Under the pieces are notes generated by a model that did no database searches, had not been told where the DNA came from, and was given only the letters and a program-made list of their open reading frames with translations. Shown here piece by piece: positions 197 to 26,264 of a stretch of DNA of 46,005 bases (position 1 is the first letter of the stretch; the number at the start of each line of letters is the position of its first letter). A program made the position numbers and the translations under genes. This DNA comes from Pseudobutyrivibrio sp. Its GTDB lineage: Bacteria > Bacillota > Clostridia > Lachnospirales > Lachnospiraceae. Where the stretch lies: NCBI GenBank assembly GCA_024693775.1, contig JAILKL010000055.1, positions 1 through 46,005 of the forward strand, given 5' to 3'.

Positions 197-556
197 TGTG
201 GATAACCCAAAAACACAATATATTAATAACTGGATAATTAAATAACACTAAATATGGTATAAACATGCTGAAAAATTTTTTTAGACTTATAAACAGCTTG
301 TGGATAACTGTGTGGATAACTGTGGAAAAATCATATTTTATTAACATTTTTATCACATTTAGAACGGAAATATGGGAAAAACTGCTGTTGAAAAGTTGAA
401 AAATGCTATGTGGATAAAAAAATTTAGATATCCACAGGCCTAAATTCTGAAAATAAGACATTTTTCTAATTTAATTATCCCCCACACGTTTCTTATATTT
501 TATTGCGAAATAAGGTTATTTAGTTTAGAATAGATATGATTTAAAATTGTGGATAA
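197..556. other. oriC, upstream DnaA-box cluster
   Basis: Five perfect TGTGGATAA boxes, all in the same orientation, occur at 197-205, 299-307, 311-319, 409-417 and 548-556. Near matches are at 321-329 (TGTGGAAAA) and, inverted, at 428-436 (ATATCCACA). The 299/311/321 trio is tightly packed. With the second cluster between dnaA and dnaN this forms a bipartite origin like that of Bacillus subtilis. The whole 474-bp rpmH-dnaA gap is AT-rich, and apart from these boxes and two promoters I see no gene in it. Boxes overlapping the dnaA promoter/leader are consistent with DnaA autoregulation, which is inference. Confidence 0.9.
503..531 (+). promoter_or_regulatory. candidate dnaA promoter
   Basis: TTGCGA (503-508), a 17-bp spacer and TAGAAT (526-531) would start transcription near 538. 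That places the perfect DnaA box at 548-556 in the 5' leader, just before the ribosome-binding site. Confidence 0.55.
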
Positions 557-568
557 AAGGGAAATTAT

Positions 569-1957
569 ATGGAAGAACTTGTTAAAAAATGGGACGAGAT
601 ATTAGTCTCACTTCAGAATGAGTATGAAATAGCAAATATCTCATTCGAATCGTGGATAAAACCTCTTGAAGTATTTCAAATAGAAGATAATAGTCTTTAT
701 TTAGTATATCAGAGTGAATCATCAGACAAATTTGCACTTAACTACATTTCTAAAAAATTCAAAACACCACTTAGAACAACTATAGCGGAAGTTACTGGTG
801 CCGAATATGAAATAATTATTATTTCACCAGAAAAAGCTAATGAAATTAAAAAAGAAAAAAATGTAAGCATTAATGTACAAGAAATATCAAAGCCTACAGA
901 AATTCGTAGAGCTATGGGTAATTCAACTATAAACCCTAGATACACATTTGATAACTTTGTCGTAGGACGAAATAATAGATTTGCTCAAACAGCTGCGCTT
1001 GCTGTTGCCGAATCTCCTGGAGAATTCTACAACCCTCTATACTTATATGGAGGTCCTGGTCTAGGAAAAACTCACTTAATGCAGGCAATCGGAAATTATA
1101 TCGAAGACCAAAATCCAAATACACATATTTTATATGTAACTTCAGAGGAATTCACAAACGAAGTAATTGAAAATATGAGAACCAGCAACAACGCTACTGC
1201 TATGCAGCGTTTTAGAGATAAATATCGTACAGTTGATGTTCTCATGGTTGATGATATTCAATTTATAATAGGAAAGGAAGCAACTCAGGAAGAATTTTTC
1301 CATACCTTTAATGCACTTCATGCAATGGGAAAACAGATTGTTATTTCATCTGATAAACCACCAAAAGATATGGAAACACTTGATGATCGTTTCAAATCAA
1401 GATTTGATATGGGTCTCATGGCTGATATCGGATATCCAGATTATGAAACACGTATGGCTATCCTTAATAAAAAGATTGAAGAAAAAAACTTCAATCTAGA
1501 CGAATCAATTAGAAAATATATAGCTGAAAATATACAGTCAAATATTAGAGAAATAGAGGGAGCTTTAAATAAGCTTATCGCTTTTTCACGATTAGAAAAA
1601 ATCGATATCACAATGGATATAGCAGAAAGAGAATTACAAAACTTTATTTCTCCTAATATTTCCAGAGAAGTAACACCACAGCTTATAATAGAAGTTGTTG
1701 CTGAGCACTTTAATATTACAGTAGATCAAATGGCCTCTAAAAATAGAGCTAGTTCGGTTGTTAGACCTAGACAAATTGCCATGTACTTATGTAATACAAT
1801 GACTGATTCTTCGCTAAAGGCTATCGGTCTTCTACTTGGAGGACGAGATCACACCACTATTATTCATGGTGCCAACAAAATTTCAGATGAAATCAACGAA
1901 GATGAAAATACTAGAAATTTAGTTGAAACAATTAAGAAGAAAATTAATCCAAATTAA
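569..1957 (+). CDS. dnaA: Chromosomal replication initiator DnaA
   Basis: DnaA binds 9-bp boxes at oriC, oligomerises with ATP and melts the origin to load helicase. The 462-residue product has the four expected domains: an N-terminal DnaB/partner domain (about 1-85), a linker, an AAA+ core with Walker A GGPGLGKTH (from about residue 161) and Walker B VLMVDDIQF, and a C-terminal helix-turn-helix with the signature GGRDHTTIIHG that reads the box. Length is normal for the family. AAAGGGA precedes the ATG. Perfect DnaA boxes lie upstream and a degenerate array begins one base after the stop codon. Confidence 0.99.
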   Translation: MEELVKKWDEILVSLQNEYEIANISFESWIKPLEVFQIEDNSLYLVYQSESSDKFALNYISKKFKTPLRTTIAEVTGAEYEIIIISPEKANEIKKEKNVSINVQEISKPTEIRRAMGNSTINPRYTFDNFVVGRNNRFAQTAALAVAESPGEFYNPLYLYGGPGLGKTHLMQAIGNYIEDQNPNTHILYVTSEEFTNEVIENMRTSNNATAMQRFRDKYRTVDVLMVDDIQFIIGKEATQEEFFHTFNALHAMGKQIVISSDKPPKDMETLDDRFKSRFDMGLMADIGYPDYETRMAILNKKIEEKNFNLDESIRKYIAENIQSNIREIEGALNKLIAFSRLEKIDITMDIAERELQNFISPNISREVTPQLIIEVVAEHFNITVDQMASKNRASSVVRPRQIAMYLCNTMTDSSLKAIGLLLGGRDHTTIIHGANKISDEINEDENTRNLVETIKKKINPN

Positions 1958-2092
1958 TGTGTAAAACCTGTTGATAAATATATGGATAAACTGTTAATTG
2001 CATGTTGATTCCCTGTTAATTCAATGTGGAGGACAAAATTAAGACATTTTTAATTCACACATTATCCATACATTATCAATACTTAATTCACA
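1958..2092. other. oriC second half: phased arrays of degenerate DnaA-box-like 9-mers
   Basis: Seven 9-mers related to TGTGNATAA start at 1958, 1969, 1981, 1992, 2003, 2014 and 2025, with 2-bp gaps (one gap is 3 bp). Four 9-mers related to the opposite orientation, TTATNCACA, start at 2051, 2062, 2073 and 2084, again with 2-bp gaps. Matches range from 6 to 8 of 9; none is perfect. The two rows converge on a 17-bp AT-rich core (2034-2050). Two further weak sites, at 2137-2145 and 2155-2163, are out of phase. The spacer is in the position of the B. subtilis unwinding region; I could not identify a clean DnaA-trio run. Confidence 0.6.
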
Positions 2093-2157
2093 GGTTTTCA
2101 TAATTTAATTTTCAATGTTTCACTAGAAAACACTGATGTTTCACAGTTATATACAAA

Positions 2158-2187
2158 TTCACACTCTATAAGAAGAGTACTTAGAAT
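2158..2187 (+). promoter_or_regulatory. candidate dnaN promoter
   Basis: TTCACA (2158-2163), an 18-bp spacer and TAGAAT (2182-2187) would start transcription about 35 bases before dnaN. The -35 overlaps a weak DnaA-box-like sequence (AAATTCACA at 2155-2163). Confidence 0.45.
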
Positions 2188-2229
2188 ATAAATTATTATT
2201 TTTATTGTTTACGAAAGGGAGCTATACAA

Positions 2230-3345
2230 ATGAAAATTACATGTCAAAAAGCAGACCTGCTTAAAGGTGTTAACATTGTATCCAAAGCAGTACCAACTAG
2301 AACTACAATGGCAATACTTGAATGTATTCTTATTGATGCATCATCTGGAGAAATTAAACTTACTGCAAATGATATGGAAATAGGAATAGAAACTATTGTT
2401 AATGGAAACATATTAGAAAGAGGAATTATTGCACTTGATGCAAAGATATTCTCAGAAATCGTAAGAAAGCTTCCTGATAATGAAGTTACTATAGAAACAG
2501 ATTCATCATTTAAGACATTTATTACATGTGAAAAAGCAAAGTTCAATATTATAGGAAAATCTGGTGAAGATTTTTCTTATATTCCAGTAATTCCTAGAAA
2601 TCAGCCTATCATTATTTCTCAGCTTACATTAAGAGATATTGTTAGACAGACAATCTTCTCTGTTGCTGACAATGAAAACAACAAGCTAATGACTGGTGAG
2701 TTGTTTGAAATCAAGGATAACAAGTTAAAGGTTGTTGCACTTGATGGACACAGAGTTTCTATTAGAAATATTGAGCTTAAAAATCAGGCTAATGATGTAA
2801 AGGTTGTCGTACCTAAGAAAACACTTAATGAAATTGTTAAGATTGTAGATGGTGGTATTGATGACGAAGTAAATATCTTTGTTACAGACAATCATATTAT
2901 TTTTGAATTTGATCAGACTACAGTTGTTTCTCGTATTATTGAGGGAGAATATTTCAAGATTGAGCAAATGCTCTCTGCTGATTACGAGACAAAGGTAAAG
3001 GTAAATAAAAGAGAATTCTTTGAATGTATCGATAGAGCTACTCTTCTTGTTAAGGAAGGTGACAAAAAGCCAATCATTGTAAATGTTACAGATGGTTCAA
3101 TGGCATTATCAATCAATTCATTTATTGGATCAATGGATGAAGAAATTGATATCACAAAAGAAGGTAAGGATTTAATGATTGGATTTAATCCAAAATTTGT
3201 TATTGATGCCTTAAAGGTAATTGATGACGAAGAGATTAACATTTATATGTTAAATGCAAAGAGTCCTTGCTTCATAAAGGATGATAATGGTTCATTTATC
3301 TATATTGTCCTTCCTGTAAACTTTAATAATCCAGGAGCAAATTAA
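2230..3345 (+). CDS. dnaN: DNA polymerase III beta subunit (sliding clamp)
   Basis: The ring-shaped clamp tethers the replicative polymerase to DNA. The 371-residue sequence begins [20 protein letters not shown] and carries the usual three repeated clamp domains (about 1-120, 130-245, 250-371). The conserved DGHRVS segment in the middle domain and the hydrophobic C-terminus ending in the YIVLPV region, which forms the partner-binding pocket, are both visible. GAAAGGGAG precedes the ATG. The stop codon overlaps the yaaA start by one base (TAATG), which suggests translational coupling into the yaaA-recF-gyrB chain. Confidence 0.98.
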
Positions 3346-24644: not shown

Positions 24645-26264
24645 ATGGATGTTCGTAGTTACACAAGAGAAGTACAGCTTCTCATAGGGGAAATACAAAA
24701 TAATAGGGGCAAAAATTCAAAGGCTGTACTGGGTGCATGTGACAGACTAGAGGAAATTGGAGCTAGTCTAAAGGATGACGCCCTCTTGGGCTATGCATAC
24801 TTTTCTAGGGGTGAAACCTATTATTTATTAAACAATGCAAAAAATTTTTATACACAGATGCTAGGATGTTTAGGACCATTAGAGCATGTTCATGAGTGGA
24901 ACTATGTTGCAATGGCTAACAATATGCTAGGTATAGTGTCATTAAATAGAGGAAATGCGCCATTTGCCTTGGATTATTTTATCAAGGCAATTAGCATTTG
25001 CCACGATTATTCTTTACCAGATATAGAATGGATGATCCATCTAAATCTAGGTTCTTTATATCTAAACATAGAAGAATACCAAAAAGCACTTAATCATACT
25101 GAAATTGCATATAGATATGTTACTAGTCATCAGGATATGGATGATTATACAGAATGTCTTACTACTACCCTATTGGGTATGGGTAGGTCTTATTTGAAAT
25201 TAGAACAAATAAGTCATGTTCTTGAGATAGAAAAGAAACTAAAGGTAGAATGTATGCCTTTTTTACAGGATAATGAAAAGCTTGTAATATATTGTTTCTT
25301 TGCTAGGACCCATGATTTGATGAAGGAATTTGAGGCTAGAGATTACTGGATTGAAAAGGTTAATGATCAACTTAGTCTAATGATTCCGATAATGGATGTC
25401 TTTGATGACTTTTACGATTACTTGGAAATGCTTTTAAACATCGAAAAGTATGATGATTTCTTCGAAACCTATGACATACTTGATGAATTGACAAAGCACA
25501 CTTCAATAAAAAACCTTGAACGAAAATTATTAACATTGAAAATACGTTATTTCAGACGTGTAGGACAAATCGAGGAATACAAAATTTCATCGGTTTTATT
25601 TTTCGAGCTATCAGAATATATGGAACGCGATAACAGATTAATGGTTAGTAACATGATCGTTATGCGTAATTCGTATATGGAGCTTACACAAATCAATCGA
25701 AAAGTAGAGGAACAGAATACATTCTTACAAAAACGTTCAGAGACAGACCCATTAACAGGGATGTATAATAGGCTGAAACTTAATGATTATAGTGAAAAAG
25801 CCTTTGATAAAGCTTTAATAAATAGAACAAATATCGCAGTTGAAATATTAGATATTGATTATTTTAAACAATATAACGACAATTATGGCCATCAGGCTGG
25901 TGATGAGTGTATTAAAACTGTAGCAAAAATACTTATAGAAATAGCCAATGAAGATGGAATTTTTTCTGCTAGGTACGGAGGCGATGAATTTGTAATTATA
26001 TATGAAGGTTTTTCAAGAGAAATGGTGGAAACAAAGGCTTTAGATTTAAGGGAGCGAATCTACAATTCAAATTGTGAGCACAGGTTTTCTCTGACAGATA
26101 ATAGAGTAACGATTTCTCAGGGTATCTGCTATGGCATTCCAAAGGACGACGAGACCTTTTTTATGTATCTTCAGGGAGCAGATAAAATGTTATATGAAGT
26201 AAAAGAGCAAAGCAGAAATAATTTAAAAATCTGTGATGCAAAAGAATTATATACAAAAGGGTGA
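24645..26264 (+). CDS. TPR-like/GGDEF diguanylate cyclase
   Basis: 539 residues. About 1-340 is all-helical with TPR-like repeats (for example MLGIVSLNRGNAPFALDYF and NLGSLYLNIEEYQKALNH). About 365-525 is a GGDEF domain starting SETDPLTGMYNRLKL, with the metal-binding DIDYFKQYNDNYGHQAGD and an intact RYGGDEF catalytic loop. It should therefore make cyclic di-GMP. No RxxD inhibitory site is present five residues before GGDEF, so product feedback may be absent. There is no membrane segment; the sensor part is cytoplasmic and presumably protein-responsive. It lies 7 bp before the first YhgE/Pip gene. Confidence 0.92.
   Translation: MDVRSYTREVQLLIGEIQNNRGKNSKAVLGACDRLEEIGASLKDDALLGYAYFSRGETYYLLNNAKNFYTQMLGCLGPLEHVHEWNYVAMANNMLGIVSLNRGNAPFALDYFIKAISICHDYSLPDIEWMIHLNLGSLYLNIEEYQKALNHTEIAYRYVTSHQDMDDYTECLTTTLLGMGRSYLKLEQISHVLEIEKKLKVECMPFLQDNEKLVIYCFFARTHDLMKEFEARDYWIEKVNDQLSLMIPIMDVFDDFYDYLEMLLNIEKYDDFFETYDILDELTKHTSIKNLERKLLTLKIRYFRRVGQIEEYKISSVLFFELSEYMERDNRLMVSNMIVMRNSYMELTQINRKVEEQNTFLQKRSETDPLTGMYNRLKLNDYSEKAFDKALINRTNIAVEILDIDYFKQYNDNYGHQAGDECIKTVAKILIEIANEDGIFSARYGGDEFVIIYEGFSREMVETKALDLRERIYNSNCEHRFSLTDNRVTISQGICYGIPKDDETFFMYLQGADKMLYEVKEQSRNNLKICDAKELYTKG

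Follow-up and report, generated by a model that had tools for sequence, protein, structure and literature searches.

The dnaA-dnaN locus and its DnaA boxes

The window (the whole stretch of Pseudobutyrivibrio DNA analysed, 46,005 nucleotides) contains dnaA and dnaN on the plus strand, with clusters of DnaA boxes on both sides of dnaA, the arrangement by which a bipartite origin is recognised. The DnaA of this genome carries an HTH domain (Pfam) and is 81–85% identical to the DnaA of named Pseudobutyrivibrio relatives. The features considered here are as follows.

197..556, minus strand: upstream half, five perfect boxes TTATCCACA at 197, 299, 311, 409 and 548
569..1957, plus strand: dnaA (Pfam Bac_DnaA, Bac_DnaA_C, DnaA_N)
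1958-2229: dnaA-dnaN spacer
1958..2022, minus strand: forward row, six 9-mers that resemble TGTNNATAA when read on the plus strand (TTATNCACA sense on the minus strand), starting at 1958, 1969, 1981, 1992, 2003 and 2014
2025..2033, minus strand: seventh forward 9-mer, TGTGGAGGA, in phase in the window, not conserved in the genus alignment
2051..2092, plus strand: reverse row, TTATNCACA-like 9-mers at 2051, 2062, 2073 and 2084, directed toward the putative unwinding region
2115..2145, plus strand: two copies of ATGTTTCAC, at 2115 and 2136, 21 bp apart
2137, plus strand: box-like TGTTTCACA, overlapped by the second ATGTTTCAC and 10 bp ahead of 2147
2147..2163, plus strand: putative basal-unwinding double DnaA box, TTATATACA at 2147 and AAATTCACA at 2155, 8-bp step
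2164..2215, plus strand: degenerate DnaA-trio-like segment and AT-rich putative unwinding element
2230..3345, plus strand: dnaN (Pfam DNA_pol3_beta domains)

Exact copies of TTATNCACA occur six times in the 46 kb: five upstream of dnaA, none in the spacer and one at 24848. An earlier note on this DNA had described eleven degenerate 9-mers in the spacer, and all eleven are present at the starts listed above. Scored against the eight fixed positions of TTATNCACA, the forward sites have 7, 7, 7, 5, 5, 5 and 6 matches and the reverse sites 7, 7, 6 and 7; with only 5 of 8, forward sites 4–6 of the window make poor boxes.

To assess the regularity of the rows, we looked on each strand for the highest-scoring chain of DnaA-box-like 9-mers whose steps measure 10–12 bp. 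The best forward chain in the spacer consists of the seven claimed sites (score 32.8), and the best reverse chain of the four claimed sites, extended through weak 9-mers to 2137 and 2147 (score 35.3). Comparison with shuffled sequence, a check that had been proposed for these rows, was carried out with 1000 dinucleotide shuffles, none of which matched the score of either row (maxima 18.6 forward and 20.8 reverse). Each row is also the top chain on its own strand across the 46 kb window, followed by the strong upstream cluster at 299–329 (29.8) and then by chains scoring at most 16.9. The two opposed, phased rows are a real feature of this DNA.

Conservation of the rows within Pseudobutyrivibrio

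The genus set comprised 26 distinct aligned spacers, identical ones being counted once. Dropped from it were L002, L003, L031 and L032, in which tblastn found no dnaA; L029 and L030, with a weak DnaA-like match and no dnaN; and L033, a second DnaA with no dnaN. L049–L051, which lie outside the genus, entered no count. The second DnaA of the L033 relative (G028:C1:64458-65831; 59% identity) occurs besides the copy at C1:999849.

Across these spacers, which share descent and whose number does not amount to 26 independent trials, the phase is kept while the linkers drift, the outcome to be looked for in relatives according to the earlier note. The forward-row steps are 11, 12, 11, 11 and 11 bp in 24 of the 26, the reverse-row steps are 11, 11 and 11 bp in every one, and the gap from the last forward to the first reverse site spans 35–38 bp. 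In the genus alignment, mean column entropy is 0.12 bits in the boxes versus 1.14 bits in the linkers of the reverse row, and 0.64 versus 1.50 bits in the forward row. We also applied the suggested 11-bp autocorrelation test in a motif-free form, to per-column entropy over 1958–2093; its value at lag 11 was equalled by 0 of 10000 permutations. The forward row taken alone has a side peak of 0.29–0.32 at lag 16–17, against 0.35 at lag 11.

These alignments refine the original description of the rows. Nearly all steps are indeed 11 bp, but that from 1969 to 1981 is 12 bp, as it likewise is in 25 of the 26 genus spacers. All seven forward sites are in phase in the window, but conservation of the one at 2025 was sought in the 26-spacer genus alignment and not found. 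The statement that perfect boxes lie only upstream of dnaA is true for the window, one of four genus spacers (n = 26) without any perfect box, but does not extend to the other 22, which carry a perfect TTATTCACA at the 2051 site. Position 2052 is A in the window and T in the other 25 spacers, and the TTATTCACA of most relatives hence becomes TAATTCACA.

In at least 25 of the 26 genus spacers, TTATCCATA and TTATCAATA keep their departures from consensus, so weakness itself seems to be kept, as would be expected under selection for weak sites.

A neutral 11-bp tandem repeat, arising by slippage within AT-rich DNA, would share the regular unit length of the rows. Its units, however, would not be expected in two orientations with linkers that differ between copies, and the rows are absent from shuffles and share their register with sites elsewhere in the family (see below). 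Such a repeat is contradicted by the conservation observed in the genus, and we regard it as extremely improbable.

The opposed orientation of the rows also raises the question of an RNA element, in which the dnaA-dnaN transcript would fold into a long hairpin with the two rows as its complementary arms. The fold of the window spacer does pair the rows with each other, and the stem pairs in 806 of 999 cells of the relatives versus 376–445 of 999 when columns are slid by 1–3. Relative to the pairs formed in the window itself, both sides change in 31 instances (5–26 in the slides). With 30 shuffles per spacer, 25 of the 26 genus spacers fold better over their first 150 nt than the average shuffle (window z = −3.65). 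However, a motif that occurs twice in opposed orientation is bound to pair with itself, and slides of 11 and 22 columns keep 59–67% pairing. Both-side changes counted against the commonest pair amount to 8 of 1039 cells, pairing between linkers is poor (at 1967/2094, in 2 of 26), and forward positions that vary stand opposite reverse ones that do not. The whole-spacer fold has z = −1.26, with 20 of 200 shuffles as good, and the three Rfam matches in the window include none inside the spacer. Although arm pairing and fold energies exceed simple controls, covariation is lacking; we rejected the hairpin and consider an RNA element very improbable.

A double box beside a putative unwinding region

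The earlier note overlooked the double DnaA box at 2147/2155, which stands before AT-rich DNA, 54 bp beyond the reverse row. For comparison we sampled 60 of 185 matching Lachnospiraceae genomes, one per genus and mostly those with the DnaA nearest to the window's. L074 was lost (no dnaN, contig end), leaving 59 genera, of which 56 could be anchored on the double box (L099, L108 and L109 were unanchored). Two boxes with an 8-bp step occur at the homologous place across the family (z = 77 for 8 bp; 59 spacers), and those at 2147/2155 are tandem boxes of fixed orientation beside the putative unwinding site. Other genera have an obvious basal unwinding module there, for example TTATTCACATATTCACAGCCACTAAGAAGACG in L062 and TTTTCAACATATTCACAGCCCCTACTACGAATACGACG in L092. 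The window's trio segment, CTATAAGAAGAGTACTTAG, is degenerate; compared by eye, the CTACTACGAATACTACG-type repeats of other genera are more distinct. A+T content is 0.82 over 2163–2212 and 0.88 over 2191–2215. The rest of the spacer has 0.68–0.82, and the putative unwinding stretch exceeds it only by a modest margin. Judged by these sequence features, the double box and the AT-rich stretch that follows it likely constitute the unwinding module.

Between the reverse row and the double box lies an exact direct repeat of ATGTTTCAC (2115–2123 and 2136–2144), its copies spaced two helical turns apart; at these two places most genus members read TGTTTTACG and GTTTCACA. Perfect inverted repeats of 7–11 bp occupy the same interval in the L053, L057, L081, L084 and L089 spacers. 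A conserved hairpin in this interval was considered and set aside as weak, stems of at least 6 occurring in 14 of 56 genera versus 12.7% of shuffles.

Site registers in other genera and other families

With the double box as zero and sites counted at six or more of eight matches, box-like sites in the 56 anchored genera fall into registers of about 11 bp, the forward ones mostly distal and the reverse ones mostly proximal. Forward sites peak at −178, −167, −156, −145, −134, −124 and −93 and reverse sites at −97, −87, −77, −54 and −43; the window's own registers are −189, −178, −166, −155, −144 and −133 (forward) and −96, −85, −74 and −63 (reverse). The ratio of forward to reverse sites among the family genera is 150:60 at −200 to −101 and 22:117 at −92 to −30. 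The segregation is not clean, since two reverse peaks of lesser strength also occur within the forward zone, at −170 and −160. Upstream of the double box, 11-bp autocorrelation gave z = 51 for forward and z = 37 for reverse sites (56 genera), and the control region at the end of the dnaA coding sequence gave none at 11 bp. The strong cluster upstream of dnaA is likewise 11-bp phased (z = 133, family), and the phase is therefore no mark of weak rows.

When a row was counted as passing if at most 3 of 300 shuffles reached it, the forward row passed in 32, the reverse row in 31 and both in 22 of the 54 testable other genera, with the forward row wholly upstream in 16 of those 22. Since both rows pass in only 22 of 54 genera, long rows are not general in the family.

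The sample from outside the family consisted of 40 loci from a class search (88 matches) and 20 from a phylum search (61 matches); loss of L112, L129, L145 and L170 (dnaN not found) left 56, of which 30 were anchored and 26 unanchored (double box score below 15). In the 30 anchored spacers the convergent layout recurs with fewer, stronger, near-consensus boxes: within 1 bp, 25 reverse sites lie at −55 and 18 at −43, and 17 forward sites lie at −84 in about 25 spacers. Averaging the top-scoring 9-mers at comparable registers (best of three offsets) gives TTATCCACA and TGTGGATAA. Both rows pass in 13 of 27 of these spacers, the forward row being wholly upstream in 12 of the 13. The convergent plan extends beyond the family, and the long weak-site rows are clearest in Pseudobutyrivibrio.

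The few near-consensus boxes of the 30 anchored outside spacers (reverse −55 and −43, forward −84) are compatible with an alternative account, in which the rows are ordinary origin boxes, a decaying distal DnaA-box cluster of a clostridial oriC2 where single sites matter and the array does not. That one distal box suffices in B. subtilis (PMC6669920) points the same way. Decay, however, would not keep the steps in 24–26 of 26 spacers or hold reverse-box entropy at 0.12 bits while the linkers vary, nor would it retain non-consensus bases. We consider this account unlikely.

The outside averages also bear on whether the rows could be the sites of another regulator, or part of the dnaN promoter region, with a shared DnaA-box core. 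A protein cannot be named from sequence alone, and a promoter-like match does lie at 2158–2187, one of 16 such matches in the scanned region versus 19.0 in shuffles. Nevertheless, the motif, the location between dnaA and dnaN and the register to the double box all fit DnaA, as do the outside-family 9-mers whose averages (best of three offsets) are TTATCCACA and TGTGGATAA, and we find this reading quite improbable.

Weak and strong halves of the origin

Perfect and one-mismatch sites on either strand were counted in the spacer and in the 500 bp that precede dnaA. In the genus the ratio of perfect to one-mismatch sites is 130:81 upstream and 23:145 in the spacer, an odds ratio of 10 from related genomes whose counts are not independent. 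The corresponding ratios are 180:221 and 116:209 in the 59 other family genera (odds ratio 1.5), and 141:172 (52 upstream stretches) and 85:158 (56 spacers) outside the family (odds ratio 1.5). This bias supports the spacer as the weak, hence presumably regulated, half in the genus. The proposal that the spacer is the regulated half of a bipartite origin gains from two observations, namely that it appears to be the unwinding half and that its sites are unusually weak in the genus (odds ratio 10).

At the DnaA residue aligned with E. coli Pro423 (position assigned by alignment to E. coli 1j1v), Pro is found in 0 of 85 family members (26 genus and 59 other genera), where the residue is mostly K, Q, D or E, and in 44 of 56 outside the family. 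PMC7561715 describes this box contact as conserved in Firmicutes. A link between loss of Pro423 and a shifted box specificity is unsupported, one-mismatch spectra looking alike inside and outside the family.

Proposed mechanism

In the reading we think probable, the origin is bipartite, flanks dnaA as in the B. subtilis/C. difficile type and has its unwinding half in the spacer, where the distal DnaA-box region takes the form, in this genus, of weak-site rows that load DnaA cooperatively. The double box at 2147/2155 and the AT-rich stretch behind it would be the basal unwinding module, and the opposed 11-bp-phased rows would be weak DnaA sites forming its distal DnaA-box region. DnaA is probably seeded by strong boxes, those of the upstream cluster and, in most relatives, the TTATTCACA at the 2051 position. 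From these it would spread cooperatively into adjacent weak sites on the same face of the helix, building or looping a DnaA oligomer onto the double box so that the DNA opens. Weak sites should be occupied only when DnaA, presumably in its ATP-bound form, is abundant, which would make the spacer half a regulated switch. The sites, their spacing and conservation, their register to the double box, the segregation by orientation and the bias toward weak sites are observed; DnaA binding, cooperativity, ATP dependence, filling direction and looping are inferred.

Several features of B. subtilis incC are relevant here. According to PMC6669920, the distal box region is essential and active at least 44 bp from box 6, its helical phasing is read as a DNA loop, and boxes 6/7 require a fixed orientation. 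The same source reports that a single distal box is tolerated; since the origin works with one, the row may be redundant.

A more ambitious reading is that origins of this family carry an E. coli-like device: two facing rows of weak DnaA sites, kept by selection and fixed in register to the unwinding module. The device would have evolved on the bipartite clostridial plan and would be most complete in Pseudobutyrivibrio, in a family whose DnaA no longer has the base-contacting Pro423. We advance this tentatively and hold it to be possible but somewhat doubtful. If true, opposed weak arrays would be a recurrent solution to the timing of initiation, no peculiarity of E. coli. The rows described here give the distal DnaA-box region of a Gram-positive origin a geometry that is conserved and can be read. 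With arrays of greater regularity than in E. coli, and in a lineage far from it, they also offer a natural setting in which to test the E. coli weak-site timing model.

Comparison with known systems

The incC/BUS region of B. subtilis shares with this spacer the position between dnaA and dnaN, a fixed-orientation double box and a helically phased distal box region, whose place the rows occupy. It differs in having seven boxes and clear trios (PMC6669920); here there are long degenerate rows, a weaker double box and a degenerate trio segment. The oriC2 of C. difficile is likewise part of a bipartite origin with boxes on both sides of dnaA, and DnaA-dependent melting occurs within its dnaA-dnaN region (PMC7561715), as would be predicted for the gap here. 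In contrast, it has 8 boxes with up to one mismatch, and no description of opposed phased rows was found for it in the part of PMC7561715 at hand.

In Thermotoga maritima oriC, box phasing also matters for unwinding, and DnaA oligomers form head-to-tail regardless of box direction (PMC10316083, in part). That origin has five boxes and another 12-mer consensus, and the same portion of the paper yielded no description of opposed weak rows. A word search of a BUS survey (PMC8287927) found no 'Lachnospir', 'Clostridi', 'array' or 'spacing', and no description of such rows was found among the open-access papers listed by searches on the Lachnospiraceae origin, an absence that is weak evidence.

The closest parallel to the rows themselves is E. 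coli oriC. According to PMC6070618 and PMC4285127, its weak sites are spaced by 2-bp gaps and form two arrays of opposite orientation (here the forward row has one 3-bp gap), and these low-affinity clusters fill from strong boxes toward the centre. The parallel drawn in the earlier note thus extends to two opposed rows of degenerate sites with 2-bp gaps, but not to outer strong boxes: strong R1 and R4 flank the arrays in E. coli, whereas none lies outside the rows here. Strong outer anchors were sought in the genus spacers; the window spacer has no perfect box, and in 22 of 26 the perfect box lies at the inner end of the reverse row. The E. coli chains are less regular by the chain statistic, scoring 12.3 and 15.9 versus 32.8 and 35.3 here, and 18 and 1 of 1000 shuffles, respectively, reach their scores. 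In E. coli oriC, examined as a control (NC_000913.3), forward boxes R1 and R5M are the closest to the unwinding element, R2 and R4 follow farther out in reverse orientation, and one forward box, TTTGGATAA, lies within the far half. Relative to the unwinding element, the boxes next to it are oriented alike in both origins. The window resembles E. coli oriC mirrored, with the unwinding region at the right, the reverse row beside it and the forward row beyond. By this analogy the spacer may work like an E. coli-type array, but because strong outer anchors are absent we do not class it as one. The kind of origin is already known, and this lineage, with its regular opposed weak rows locked to the double box, appears to have a new variation on it.
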